Of a stretch of 56,598 nt of DNA, positions 50,128 to 54,885 are shown piece after piece (position 1 is the stretch's first letter; each line of letters begins with the position of its first letter). Source of the stretch: Roseibacillus sp. (lineage in GTDB: Bacteria; Verrucomicrobiota; Verrucomicrobiia; Verrucomicrobiales; Akkermansiaceae); assembly GCA_002686085.1 (NCBI GenBank), contig NZAC01000026.1, positions 2,143-58,740 of the forward strand, given 5' to 3'. Position numbers and translations under genes: made by a program. A model generated the notes under the pieces. It was not told the DNA's origin and ran no database searches. It saw nothing but the letters and a program-made list of their open reading frames with translations.

Positions 50128-52761
50128 CTACCAGCCGCCTCCCCCTCCTCCTCCGCCACCACCTCCGGATCCACCGCCACCACCACCTCCTCCGCCGCCG
50201 CCAAACCCACCACCACCGGAGGAAGGCGCGCTGGCAGAGGAGCTCAAGGACCCCGTGAAGCTTCCAGAAAGATCGCTTACAAAGCCACTCATCCCCGCAC
50301 CACTCGTAAAGCCTGAATCGCTTCGGTAAAATCCCGGGCTGTAAGAACCCGAAGACGAGTCTACCCCCGACGCCTTCAGGACCTCCTCAAATTGCTCCCC
50401 CCACTGCTGCTCACAGCCGAGTGCCACCGCGTAGGGCAGGAACTCCTCAAACAGCTCAAGGGTCTTCTCCGGAGTTTCCGGTGGAGCGTAGAGTCGAAGA
50501 CGCTCTTCCTCCGCCACACTTAGGTAGCGCCGGAACCCCTCAATCTCATCCAGCAATTTTCTCCCGCGACGCGTTGGCGCCTTGATGAGGTAGTAAAAGA
50601 CATGGAACAGCACGCAGGCAAAAAGAGTACCCACCCCAGCGACCCATGAAGGAGTATAAATGTTCCAAGCGTCAGTGGAGACCATCTGCACAATCAAAAT
50701 AGAGAGCCCGACAAAAATGTAGAAGGGCCACATCAAACTCATGATCCCGTGTGATGGTCGAGTGCCGGCAAATAATCCAAAGAAGGCAATAAGCCCCCCA
50801 CCAAGAATCACCGGAAACATGGTTATCATCACATACAGCCATCCAAGTGGGAGAACAGCGGCCCCAGCAACCGAGAGGACCACCCCTGGAACAAGGTAAG
50901 GAAGGTTCCTCTTGAAGGTGACCCCATCCGCTTGTGCCTCGATCGCCTTGCGGTGCTGCTTGCGCGCCTCACCGATCCGTTCGTAATGCTCATCGTCGAG
51001 CTCTAGAGCTCTGCTCTTCGCAAAGAGAAAAGCCCAAAGTCGGCCCTCATCCAAGGTCAGCGCTGGCCCCTTAGGGCCCGGCTTGAGGTGTCCGCTCCGT
51101 TTCTTCAGGGTGTAGACTTCCTCCTTCTTTTCGATAGCGAGCGCTCTCTTATTCCCCAGCCCGATGACCCCCACACTGAAGCACGTGTTGTCATACTGCA
51201 TTTTTGTGAGATAACGAACAGCTGCCGCTGAAAGCCCTGCTGGAGGACCGTAAAGAGGAACGATGGTATTCGTTTTCGGATCGATTCCCACTCCAGCCCA
51301 GGCGCAACAATAGTAGAGCAACGCAAAGAAAAGCAGACAGACTCCCCAGACGAGGCCGGGCGCGTCGCGAAGCAGCACAAATTTTGCTTCTTCGTAGACC
51401 CTTGCTTCGAGCAGCCCCGGAGGCCACTCGAGCACCAAGGACAGGTTTTCCTTGGGATCAAACGGACGGGTAGAAGCAATAGTCGCCCCGGTCTCGGTCA
51501 GCTTGGCGTGGTAATCTTGGCCCTCCTCTTTCAGCTTCCCGGTGTAGCCCCAGATCTTGGTTCCCTTGATCCCTGCCGGCAAGGTCACTGTAGCACTGAC
51601 CTCGTCGACAGGAAACGGCCACTCCGTGCCATTGACATTCCAGTAAAGCGCATCTCGGCCTTCCTCCAAGTAGAGCTGCCGTCCCGTTCGGTAGGTAATT
51701 TCATAAGTATAGATTCCTCGCTTGAGAACTACCGAAGGGCGGCCGATACGGATTCGAATCCCTGCCCTCCCTAACGGCTTGGTCTGGTAGTTCTCTCTTT
51801 TCCCGTCGCGTAGTACAGAGAGGACTCTCAATGGATTTTTCCCTTTGCGTCCCTCTCGCAGTCGCGGGATATCACGGAAAATCCCCCGCTTGATTGCCTC
51901 ACCCAGAGCCCGGACTACGATCGTTTCCCGCACCAGCAAATCTCCCTTCCGCTCCACCTTGATATCACTATGCCATGAGAGAATCCGTTCCCCACCGAGG
52001 TCACGCAACTTAGGCCGGCGGGGCGGAGAGGCCTCGAGAACATCCTCTCGGACTTCCCTGGCCCCCTTCTCGGATTTCGAGGATCCTATCAGACCCCGAA
52101 CTTCCATCTCCAAATGCAATGTCTCACTCCGGCCCAAGGGCCGGGTCGCCACGATGGTGGCCCCTCCTTGTGTCAGGACCACCTTGCACCCCCCATTACT
52201 TTCACTCGATCGTGATCCGATCGCCCCCGAAATTCTGACGTCCTCACCCTTGACCCCCTCCGGCAGCTCAACCTCTGCGCTCACCTCGGCAAAAGGCAAT
52301 CCCCACTCCGTCCCATTGATAGGCCAGGAAAGAATCCCCTGATTCGTGAAGGCCGCCGGTGGCCCAGAGCGCCCTGACCTGACCCGGTAGGTAATCTCAA
52401 AGTCATGATCCCCTGGACCGAGGACATCCTGCCCACTATCGCCAATTAATATACGGGTCACTCCACCCGCCTTGAGTGCTGCCACCTGCCAAGGCTGCTT
52501 GGCCCCGTTCCGCAGGGCCCGGACCATCTTACCACTCGGAAACGACGGAATATCACGGAACATTCCTTCCCTCCACGTCCTCTCTTCCAGCCTGATCCGG
52601 ATAGTCTCGGTCACCAGAAGGCCACCGGTAGGCTCTACCACAATCCTACTGTGGAAGGAGAGAACCCGCCCCTCTGCGAACGCCTCTGGAAGGGCAACGC
52701 CCAGCAGCACCAGAACCATTACCAGCACTCGAAGCATCACTCTAATACCACCCCTAAACAT
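50128..52761 (-). CDS. DUF2207 membrane protein with duplicated N-terminal domain
   Basis: 877 residues. Signal peptide (VLVMVLVLLGVALPEAFAEG; an ATG at 52737 is an alternative start), then two copies of the extracytoplasmic DUF2207 beta domain, at about 28-225 and 255-470. Each copy opens with a SFHSRIVVE/SWHSDIKVE strand and contains a FRDIP motif and NGTEWPFP-type stretch. A membrane helix follows at about 482-500, then a cytoplasmic segment (GLSAAAVRYLTKMQYDNTCFSVGVIGL), two pairs of helices, and EGFRRYLSVAEEERLRL near the C-terminus. The last 40 residues are almost all glycine, ending in Trp. Function unknown in this family. Last of three tandem paralogues, 15 bases behind the previous one. 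Confidence 0.85.
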   Translation of the reverse strand: MFRGGIRVMLRVLVMVLVLLGVALPEAFAEGRVLSFHSRIVVEPTGGLLVTETIRIRLEERTWREGMFRDIPSFPSGKMVRALRNGAKQPWQVAALKAGGVTRILIGDSGQDVLGPGDHDFEITYRVRSGRSGPPAAFTNQGILSWPINGTEWGLPFAEVSAEVELPEGVKGEDVRISGAIGSRSSESNGGCKVVLTQGGATIVATRPLGRSETLHLEMEVRGLIGSSKSEKGAREVREDVLEASPPRRPKLRDLGGERILSWHSDIKVERKGDLLVRETIVVRALGEAIKRGIFRDIPRLREGRKGKNPLRVLSVLRDGKRENYQTKPLGRAGIRIRIGRPSVVLKRGIYTYEITYRTGRQLYLEEGRDALYWNVNGTEWPFPVDEVSATVTLPAGIKGTKIWGYTGKLKEEGQDYHAKLTETGATIASTRPFDPKENLSLVLEWPPGLLEARVYEEAKFVLLRDAPGLVWGVCLLFFALLYYCCAWAGVGIDPKTNTIVPLYGPPAGLSAAAVRYLTKMQYDNTCFSVGVIGLGNKRALAIEKKEEVYTLKKRSGHLKPGPKGPALTLDEGRLWAFLFAKSRALELDDEHYERIGEARKQHRKAIEAQADGVTFKRNLPYLVPGVVLSVAGAAVLPLGWLYVMITMFPVILGGGLIAFFGLFAGTRPSHGIMSLMWPFYIFVGLSILIVQMVSTDAWNIYTPSWVAGVGTLFACVLFHVFYYLIKAPTRRGRKLLDEIEGFRRYLSVAEEERLRLYAPPETPEKTLELFEEFLPYAVALGCEQQWGEQFEEVLKASGVDSSSGSYSPGFYRSDSGFTSGAGMSGFVSDLSGSFTGSLSSSASAPSSGGGGFGGGGGGGGGGGSGGGGGGGGGGGW
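50131..50226 (-). repeat. glycine-codon repeat (C-terminal tail of first-listed DUF2207 gene)
   Basis: Near-continuous CCN/GCC triplets on the plus strand, encoding runs of 10-11 glycines broken by Ser or Phe and ending in Trp. Such a triplet tract is prone to slippage and may vary in length between strains. Confidence 0.75.
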
Positions 52762-52776
52762 TTGTCTTTCAATATT

Positions 52777-54885
52777 TTACCATCCTCCACCACCACCGCC
52801 GCCGCCACCGCCGCCGGATCCACCACCGCCGCCGCCACCGCCGCCGCTCCCTCCAGACGAGGGCGCAGTGGCAGAGGAGGAAAGAGAGCCCGTGAAACCC
52901 CCGCTCAAGTCACTCATCGTGCCGCTCAGGCTGTCCGAGGACCCCGAGTAATAGCTTGGACTGTAACTGCTGTCTCCCGGGGCAATTCCCGCCGCCTGCA
53001 GAACCGAATCGAACTTTACCGCCCATTGCTGCTCACACCCCAGCGCAAGGGCATACGGCAGAAAGCGCTCAAAGAGTTCCGGGGTCTCTTCCGGCGGATT
53101 TTCAAGATTTAACCGGTCCTCCTCTGCCACGCTGAGATAAAGCCGAAATCCTTCGATCTCATCCCGCACCCGCTGGCCCAGCTTGGTTGGAGCCTTGATC
53201 AGCTGATAGAACACCTGATTCAGGACCACGGCATAGAGCGCTGCTCCGCCCACCCAGAGACTGGAATGGGCGGTCGTGAAAAAAAACAAGACTCCCCAGA
53301 TCCCACATCCAAGCAACATCCCCAGCATACCCAAAACCCCGAGGTCCTTCCCCCGCTGCACAACGCAGAGCGCCACCGCGGCTGTCAGGATAACCGTCAC
53401 GATGCTTAGGAAGCCCAGCGCGATTAAGGCCTCCCCAGAGGGGCCGGTAGCAAAAACAAAAACCAGTCCACCAAGCAGGGAGAGGAGGAGGCCCGGAACC
53501 CACCAGGCAATATTCCTCACGAAGTGAACCTTTTCCACCTGCGTGGCGAGGAGTTTCTTATGAGCTTCGTTCGCTCGCCCGATCCGAACATGGTTGGACT
53601 GCTTAAGCTTGAGCGAACCCCGTCCGAACAACTTTTTGTGAAGACCGTTCTCATCGGCAGTCAGGGGCTCCGCCAGATCCCCAGGGGAGAAATGAGACAA
53701 CGCCACATGTGTGAGCATCTTTGCGAGGGTCCCTTTCCCAATACCCTTGACCCGCAGGATGTCCTCAACCTTGCCGTAGGGGCGACCCTTCTGGATGCCT
53801 GCCGCTCGGAAGGCGGTGATTGCCTTGAGGTCCATGAGATCCTTGATCTCCCCTTCGTTGAGAAGCCCGAGCAGTTCTTCCTCCTGCGCGGGCGTTAGCG
53901 AGCTACTGGGGTGCAAAGTATATACGCTTCCGCCCTCCTCCTTCTCAATGACGGCCTGTTTCTTGGCCGCCAACCCAACTACTCCAGCACTGAAGCACTT
54001 CTTGTCATGGCCCATCTGGTCAAGATAGCGCACTGCTGCGGCAGAAAGGCCCTCCGGGGGATTATAGCGGGGAATGATGGTCCCCCTCTCAGGATCCTTC
54101 CCCACCTTGATCCACGCCCAGAGGTAATACAGGAACGCTCCCACGAGCAGAATCAGCCCGAAGGCCACCAGCGGGTGGTCCCGGAACAGCGAATCCCGCG
54201 CCTGACTGTAAGCTTGATCGTCCAGTAACCCGGGGGGCCACTCGAGCACCAAGGACAGGTTCTCTCTGGAACGAAATGGCCGGGTGGCGGCAATGGTAGC
54301 CCCAGTCGGTGTCAGGACCGCGCTGTAGGACCCTCGCTTCTTCCCGCGCGTCCCGGTGTAACCCCAGACTTTTTTTCCTCTGACTCCTTCAGGTAAGAGA
54401 ACCGTGGCACTCACACTGCTGGCGGGAAAGGGCCACTCCGTCCCATTCACATTCCAGAAGAGCACATCCCGTTCCTCCTCAAAGTAAAGCTGCCGCCCGG
54501 TTCGATAGCGGATTTCGTAGGTATAATAGGCCTCGGGTTTGAGGAAAACGTCCGCCCGCCCGATACGAATCCGGATCCCTCCCTGGCCGATACTCTCGGT
54601 CTGATAGTTTTCCTTTTTCCCGTCGCGCATCACGGAAAGCACCTCAAAGGGCTTCTTCGCTTTAAGCCCGAACTTGGTCGTCCGAAGGCGCGGGATATCC
54701 CGGTAAATGCCCCGCCTGATCTCTCTCCCCTCGGCACGAACCTGGATGGTCTCGGTCACCAGGAGGTCCCCACTCCGCTCTACAACGATTCGGCTATGAA
54801 ACGACGTAATCCGCTCGTCTGCAAGGACGTCTGGAAGGGCCGCCCCCGCGAGAAATAGAACCGCTCCCAATAATCTAACCATCAC
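52777..54885 (-). CDS. DUF2207 membrane protein with inserted helix-hairpin-helix
   Basis: 702 residues. Signal peptide (LLGAVLFLAGAALPDVLA), one DUF2207 beta domain (FHSRIVVERSGDLLVTE, then YRDIPRL, NGTEWPFPASS), a membrane helix at about 230-250, a cytoplasmic part (GLSAAAVRYLDQMGHDKKCFSAG), two pairs of helices and the EGFRLYLSVAEEDRL segment, then a glycine tail ending in Trp. Unlike both neighbours, about residues 335-390 hold a ComEA-like helix-hairpin-helix: ITAFRAAGIQKGRPY followed by KVEDILRVKGIGKGTLAKML. That motif usually grips DNA backbone non-specifically. Middle gene of the cluster, with 38 bases to the one before it and 15 to the one after. Confidence 0.85.
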   Translation of the reverse strand: MMVRLLGAVLFLAGAALPDVLADERITSFHSRIVVERSGDLLVTETIQVRAEGREIRRGIYRDIPRLRTTKFGLKAKKPFEVLSVMRDGKKENYQTESIGQGGIRIRIGRADVFLKPEAYYTYEIRYRTGRQLYFEEERDVLFWNVNGTEWPFPASSVSATVLLPEGVRGKKVWGYTGTRGKKRGSYSAVLTPTGATIAATRPFRSRENLSLVLEWPPGLLDDQAYSQARDSLFRDHPLVAFGLILLVGAFLYYLWAWIKVGKDPERGTIIPRYNPPEGLSAAAVRYLDQMGHDKKCFSAGVVGLAAKKQAVIEKEEGGSVYTLHPSSSLTPAQEEELLGLLNEGEIKDLMDLKAITAFRAAGIQKGRPYGKVEDILRVKGIGKGTLAKMLTHVALSHFSPGDLAEPLTADENGLHKKLFGRGSLKLKQSNHVRIGRANEAHKKLLATQVEKVHFVRNIAWWVPGLLLSLLGGLVFVFATGPSGEALIALGFLSIVTVILTAAVALCVVQRGKDLGVLGMLGMLLGCGIWGVLFFFTTAHSSLWVGGAALYAVVLNQVFYQLIKAPTKLGQRVRDEIEGFRLYLSVAEEDRLNLENPPEETPELFERFLPYALALGCEQQWAVKFDSVLQAAGIAPGDSSYSPSYYSGSSDSLSGTMSDLSGGFTGSLSSSATAPSSGGSGGGGGGGGGSGGGGGGGGGGGW
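52783..52856 (-). repeat. glycine-codon repeat (tail of the HhH-bearing DUF2207 gene)
   Basis: A second triplet tract, CCN/GCC on the plus strand, encoding two blocks of 9-11 glycines with a Ser between and a terminal Trp. It lies at the same place in the protein as in the two paralogues. Confidence 0.75.

Follow-up and report, generated by a model that had tools for sequence, protein, structure and literature searches.

The window analysed here (56,598 nucleotides; positions 2143-58740 of contig C26 in the 3.95-Mb genome G000) comes from a Roseibacillus (Akkermansiaceae, Verrucomicrobiota), to judge by Roseibacillus MAGs whose proteins are 97-98% identical. Between positions 50128 and 56597 it contains an array of DUF2207 genes on the reverse strand, in which the gene of interest (52777-54885, GTG start, 702 aa) is placed between a downstream paralogue of 877 aa (50128-52761) and an upstream paralogue cut by the contig end (54924-56597), all three identified from open reading frames and Pfam matches. 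Arrays of this type, seen in the window as well as in L076, L077, L079, L082 and L083, run from a LemA gene through a gene for a protein consisting of DUF2207_C only to two to four DUF2207 genes, after which ATP synthase genes come in most cases. For the array of the window, the upstream end is apparently located on contig C44, where the start of a DUF2207 gene occupies the contig end. The number of DUF2207 copies differs among Roseibacillus species, and some paralogues have two N-terminal DUF2207 domains.

The 702-aa protein is a member of the DUF2207 family, with matches to DUF2207 (PF09972, 82 bits) and DUF2207_C (PF20990, 107 bits) that exceed the Pfam cut-offs of 24.4 and 33, respectively, and with the remaining family traits, i.e. 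a large outside N-terminus, transmembrane helices and a Gly/Ser-rich C-terminus. A signal peptide precedes the extracytoplasmic DUF2207 domain (residues 25-213; 54247-54813, reverse strand, as are all features below), which is beta-rich and confidently modelled. Transmembrane helix 1 (residues 238-262; 54100-54174) leads through the KDPERG stretch into the first cytoplasmic part of DUF2207_C (residues 263-326; 53908-54099), modelled as helices 282-290 and 295-307 and strands 311-315 and 322-326, a helix-helix-strand-strand order that may be winged-helix-like. The DUF2207_C fold resumes in a second cytoplasmic part (residues 405-458; 53512-53673), defined by alignment and model, and is followed by four more transmembrane helices (residues 459-562; 53200-53511) that coincide with hydrophobic runs.

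Between the two cytoplasmic parts, residues ~329-398 (53692-53901) stand out as a clean extra block when 20 array proteins of seven genomes are aligned. The block is made up of an N-terminal helix and two helix-hairpin-helix (HhH) motifs and is delimited by comparison with the insert-free paralogues and by profile scores. In the other paralogues the first cytoplasmic part, which ends with YTL in the window proteins, runs through a short linker directly into the next helix (LTxxE). The sequence-only reading had described an HhH pair at about residues 335-390 and an unrelated linker at the same place in both neighbours, and on both counts the alignment and the profiles agree with it: the neighbours, like every other paralogue compared, have just a short linker there. 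The segment LNEGE...LAKML corresponds to residues 342-391 of the open reading frame (53713-53862). In the position table, motif 1 (residues 342-366; 53788-53862) has a degenerate hairpin, KAIT in the window and K/DGIS in three more distant orthologues, and thus deviates from the GhG pattern, while motif 2 (VEDILRVKGIGKGTLAKML; residues 373-391; 53713-53769) conforms to it with the hairpin KGIGKG, which is invariant among orthologues. The pair as originally read consequently needs one amendment: two units are present, but with LKAIT in place of LPGIG in the first, only the second has the canonical GIG hairpin.

The HhH profile match anticipated by the sequence-only reading was obtained in several ways. 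Pfam HHH_3 matched the whole protein with E = 0.0015 (19.1 bits) and the segment alone with E = 3e-4 (21.2 bits), both below the 27-bit cut-off of that family. A phmmer search of the PDB chains with the 80-aa segment retrieved the ComEA-related structure 2DUY with E = 1.2e-9, the HhH domain of the chromokinesin KIF22 (2EDU) with E = 0.0014 and ComEA (8DSS) with E = 0.009. A further HMM, for which 21 HhH domains from non-DUF2207 proteins served as input and the insert was left out, scored the segment at 66.7 bits, compared to 9.5 bits for the best of 5000 shuffled sequences and at most 1.6 bits for the insert-free paralogues, and we rejected chance resemblance on these grounds. Finally, a profile of the insert and its secreted kin (A3, see below) found 2DUY (1e-15), ComEA 8DSS (7e-12) and KIF22 (1e-10) in the PDB, with EEPD1 also among the strong matches and with L32e and TEFM as weak ones (E 0.02-0.2); the same profile matched PsbU, an HhH relative that is not known as a DNA-binding protein. 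By these computations, the insert is shown to be homologous to HhH domains.

The structural models neither prove nor refute the HhH fold, as their confidence in this region is low, and the case for it rests on the sequence profiles. The AlphaFold model of the whole protein has a mean pLDDT of 77.8 and mostly 44-70 over the insert, where it places low-pLDDT helices at 332-353, 358-366, 373-380 and 384-397 and a loop at 367-372; the turns at KAIT and KGIG in this low-confidence region correspond to the layout of two HhH units. When the insert was modelled alone, together with five orthologues, the mean pLDDT was 42.8. A Foldseek search with this model returned nothing under E 0.99, the best match being the N-terminal HhH domain of TEFM (5OL9), which at E 0.99 is not significant. 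In the VIA comparison of the insert model the matches were death-fold domains with Z under 4, and the absence of HhH families from them does not exclude such families. With the whole model, Foldseek pointed to M1 aminopeptidases and oligosaccharyltransferase subunits (E ~1e-6 to 1e-4), matches that we set aside as uninformative because their TM scores were under 0.35 and that we take to reflect a shared arrangement of beta domains.

The insert is predicted to face the cytoplasm, as had been read from the sequence. This orientation follows from the helices at residues 238-262 and 459-562, from the positive-inside rule, with basic residues on the predicted inner loops (helix 1 is followed by KDPERG, helix 2 preceded by KKLLATQVEKVHFVRN and helix 5 followed by IKAPTKLGQR, with QRGKDLG as a further such stretch), and from the published description of the DUF2207 family, according to which the N-terminus is outside and the C-terminus inside (PMC10457818); the helix and charge topology of the host protein agrees with that description.

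The distribution of the insert is narrow. It is present in six of the 15 sampled Roseibacillus genomes (G000, G106, G118, G083, G027 and G112), and no further DUF2207-HhH protein was found in the rest of the sampled family or in 387 genomes drawn from the phylum. We also surveyed 184 distinct DUF2207 proteins, some of which are incomplete or nearly duplicate one another; they belong to Verrucomicrobiota, Bacteroidota, Actinomycetota and Patescibacteria (phyla named after the records used as centres of the survey). The HhH HMM matched the Roseibacillus orthologues alone and none of the ~175 others, which rules out a wider DUF2207-HhH family within this sample of 184. A literature search that joined DUF2207 with helix-hairpin-helix returned no publication; the earlier statement that no such architecture has been described thus stands, both for that search and for the proteins sampled outside Roseibacillus, and the survey of the family it had called for places the same insert in the Roseibacillus orthologues only.

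In a tree calculated from the cytoplasmic, membrane and C-terminal parts with the insert excluded, the HhH-bearing proteins form one clade (99/97), so that a single capture followed by descent suffices to explain them; a single origin of the insert is thereby shown computationally. Its reading frame continues through six species free of stops and frameshifts, and the stretches LLNEGE, RPY and LRVKGIGKG vary little or not at all across the orthologues. Comparison of the orthologues gives dN/dS values of 0.19-0.54 for the insert; in the first cytoplasmic part and in the C-terminal domain they are lower, and in the transmembrane part they are similar or higher. Identity of the insert to L041 and L042 is 57-60%, compared to 81% and 65-77% for the flanking cytoplasmic parts. 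Computed in this way, the insert is under purifying selection. An artefact of sequencing or assembly was discarded in view of the six species, the one conserved frame and dN/dS under 1.

Two genomes illustrate how the array changes. In G027, two tandem DUF2207 copies of 629 and 695 aa (L077:1449-5466) share their N-terminus and differ in their C-terminal parts, only one of them having the insert, which suggests gene conversion between paralogues. In G046 the array lacks the HhH gene, so the gene is not essential there; its DNA identity is 94% in the LemA half and 83% over the last gene, and the flanking genes meet at a short stretch rich in Gly codons (L082:3760-3860). This junction fits a loss of the HhH gene by recombination between Gly-rich gene ends, a mechanism that we infer, and these Gly-codon-rich gene ends may drive changes in copy number.

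The nearest sequences to the module are small secreted proteins (~150-220 aa) from other Akkermansiaceae genera and from a second family of the order, which have a signal peptide and, besides a segment enriched in Lys, Thr, Ser and Pro, one ComEA-like HhH pair with the N-terminal helix that is also seen in the insert (LTPxQxxxLLxLLNxG). Members of this family include L084:4563-5078, L086:4149-4712, L087:4041-4574, L090, L092-L094 and L249-L258, and their tail is histone-H1-like; these proteins possibly bind DNA outside the cytoplasm. In the HhH tree, the insert and its secreted kin cluster together (99/97), while ComEA, 2DUY and the SNase-HhH nucleases fall outside this group, whose inner order is unsure because the alignment has 68 columns; KIF22, which has the LLNEG helix too, falls into this group on a long branch. 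The label "ComEA-like" given by the sequence-only reading is therefore apt as far as the ComEA-related matches (2DUY, 8DSS) go, but the insert is closer to the verrucomicrobial family of secreted Lys-rich HhH proteins than to ComEA itself.

Across the 15 Roseibacillus genomes, the HhH profile matched only the DUF2207 insert and a frame of SNase-HhH size (~303-397 aa). Descent of the insert from the genome's own SNase-HhH gene was ruled out by the different clade of the latter and by its missing N-terminal helix. Secreted staphylococcal-nuclease-like (SNase-like) proteins with a C-terminal ComEA-like HhH domain recur in Verrucomicrobiota, at L085:433-1380, L088:4085-5053 and L105:1477-2379 (the window genome, contig C71). 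In another verrucomicrobial family, L101:1489-2484 has a GRPY-type HhH at its C-terminus and, by prediction, a transmembrane segment; L099 and L103, from the order of the window, are short proteins in which a hydrophobic anchor accompanies the HhH.

As regards function, the reference is the central DNA-binding lysine of ComEA, K166 in Geobacillus, K164 in B. subtilis and K63 in V. cholerae; the K166A variant does not bind DNA, and in the B. subtilis and V. cholerae mutants transformation drops by more than 2 logs (PMC9747964, PMC3879209). In our position table this column is occupied by R360 of the insert (53806-53808). All four insert types have Arg there, KIF22 has Lys, and 12 of the 14 secreted relatives have Lys or Arg; of the 16 members of the SNase/2DUY group, only one has a basic residue. 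K389 aligns with K199 of the Geobacillus protein. Further points in favour of DNA binding are the invariant hairpin 2, the Lys-rich, histone-H1-like tails of the kin and the HhH motif in the C-terminal DNA-binding domain of KIF22. Several features speak against it: hairpin 1 deviates from GIG, the K195 column is Gly in the insert, T196 is not conserved, and the net charge of the insert ranges from -1 to +2, whereas two of three secreted relatives for which it was computed reach +7. The profile match to PsbU, the low model confidence over the insert, the lack of a significant fold match and the absence of the gene from G046 count on this side too. With respect to hairpin 1, the second glycine of V. 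cholerae ComEA tolerates G60A and does not tolerate G60V or G60E (PMC3879209), and the Ser/Thr of the insert lies outside this reported set of substitutions (Ala, Val, Glu). On balance, DNA binding by the insert is plausible.

We propose that one paralogue of the Roseibacillus LemA-DUF2207 array captured, once, a ComEA/Kid-type (HhH)2 module in the loop that interrupts its cytoplasmic DUF2207_C domain after the first half. The host would have remained an inner-membrane protein with an extracytoplasmic domain, with the module projecting into the predicted cytoplasmic space, where it most likely would grip the phosphates of double-stranded DNA, irrespective of sequence, by means of hairpin 1, with its R360 patch, and of hairpin 2, KGIGKG. 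Such a grip would turn the host into a weak membrane-to-DNA tether, and a captured (HhH)2 module acting as a membrane-bound non-specific tether for DNA (or protein) is the explanation that we favour overall, although tentatively. A more elaborate version, in which a sensor-like extracytoplasmic protein has gained a sequence-independent DNA clamp in the cytoplasm that ties the nucleoid to the membrane at a LemA-DUF2207 complex, is somewhat less probable. Alternatively, the HhH pair could be a protein-contact module that binds no DNA and docks a partner at the membrane, be it a soluble protein, LemA or a second DUF2207 protein, a possibility to be taken seriously even if we rather doubt it. PsbU uses its HhH for protein contact in photosystem II, and its match to the same profile, the near-zero net charge of the insert and the degenerate hairpin 1 in every orthologue can all be read in this way; moreover, membership in the LemA-DUF2207 array makes protein partners likely. 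On the other hand, the invariant Arg at the position essential for DNA binding in ComEA and the invariant KGIGKG speak against docking, as does the closest family, whose members are rich in Lys and are not known as docking modules.

That the flexible linker tolerates the insert as a nearly neutral passenger in decay is, in our opinion, improbable. Hairpin 1 does erode, most of all in the window species (AIT), the identity to L041 and L042 drops from 81% and 65-77% in the flanking cytoplasmic parts to 57-60% in the insert, and G046 lives without the gene; nonetheless, dN/dS of 0.19-0.54, the lack of stops and frameshifts in six species and the conservation of LLNEGE, RPY and LRVKGIGKG argue against decay. 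Binding of RNA or ribosomes instead of DNA is less probable still: HhH-like domains are known in ribosomal and RNA-related proteins and profile A3 touches L32e and TEFM, but these matches are weak, while the strong ones are to ComEA, KIF22 and EEPD1. Returning to the membrane-DNA tether, we thus regard non-specific DNA binding by the insert as its leading candidate function, yet as one that falls somewhat short of being probable.

As judged from the sequences, this is a real, single-origin and selectively maintained HhH insertion, whose architecture is new and whose parts are known. Its carriers are a few Roseibacillus marine bacteria, in which it affects one member among duplicated inner-membrane proteins of DUF2207, a widespread membrane family with no known biochemical role. 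A paralogue that bears an insert and keeps its scaffold whole points to a cytoplasmic loop where DUF2207 can present a cargo-binding domain, and suggests that a verrucomicrobial HhH module, found here otherwise on secreted proteins, is movable into a predicted cytoplasmic setting. If DNA binding is true, the protein would represent a simple natural membrane-DNA tether.

Among known systems, the host resembles other DUF2207 proteins (PF09972 + PF20990, such as SMU.243) in its signal peptide, outside domain, transmembrane helices, cytoplasmic DUF2207_C and Gly-rich C-terminus, and differs from all those sampled outside its orthologues in having the HhH insert; a mutant of SMU.243 in S. mutans has reduced acid and peroxide tolerance and forms less biofilm. 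The secreted SNase-HhH nucleases of Verrucomicrobiota likewise possess a ComEA-like HhH of the GRPY type, but they group with ComEA and 2DUY in one clade, do without the N-terminal helix and for the most part have no basic residue at the K166 place. In KIF22 (Kid), whose C-terminal DNA-binding domain includes an HhH motif, the match between 2EDU and the insert pairs KILDLLNEGSARDLRSL with ELLGLLNEGEIKDLMDL, including the N-terminal helix, and there is a basic residue past hairpin 1; however, KIF22 is a eukaryotic motor protein with a longer inter-motif loop and with the hairpins RIG and GIT. ComEA (of B. subtilis, Geobacillus 8DSS/8DFK and V. cholerae) and 2DUY share with the insert two HhH motifs, joined by a short loop that in the insert is modelled with low confidence, and GIG in motif 2, and ComEA also the basic residue at K166 (Geobacillus) or K63 (V. 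cholerae). Unlike the insert, which lacks GIG in motif 1 and occupies a predicted cytoplasmic loop of a DUF2207 protein, ComEA is a stand-alone periplasmic or extracellular protein of DNA uptake. The secreted Lys-rich HhH proteins (e.g. L084:4563-5078 and L086:4149-4712) have a signal peptide and a tail rich in Lys, Thr, Ser and Pro and no membrane domain, whereas the insert is tail-less, resides in the predicted cytoplasmic loop of a 702-aa membrane protein, and has a charge near zero and a degenerate hairpin 1. Nonetheless, they resemble the insert in the N-terminal helix, the HhH pair and the K-x-R-P loop, and at the place of K166 in ComEA they mostly have Lys or Arg, where the insert has Arg.
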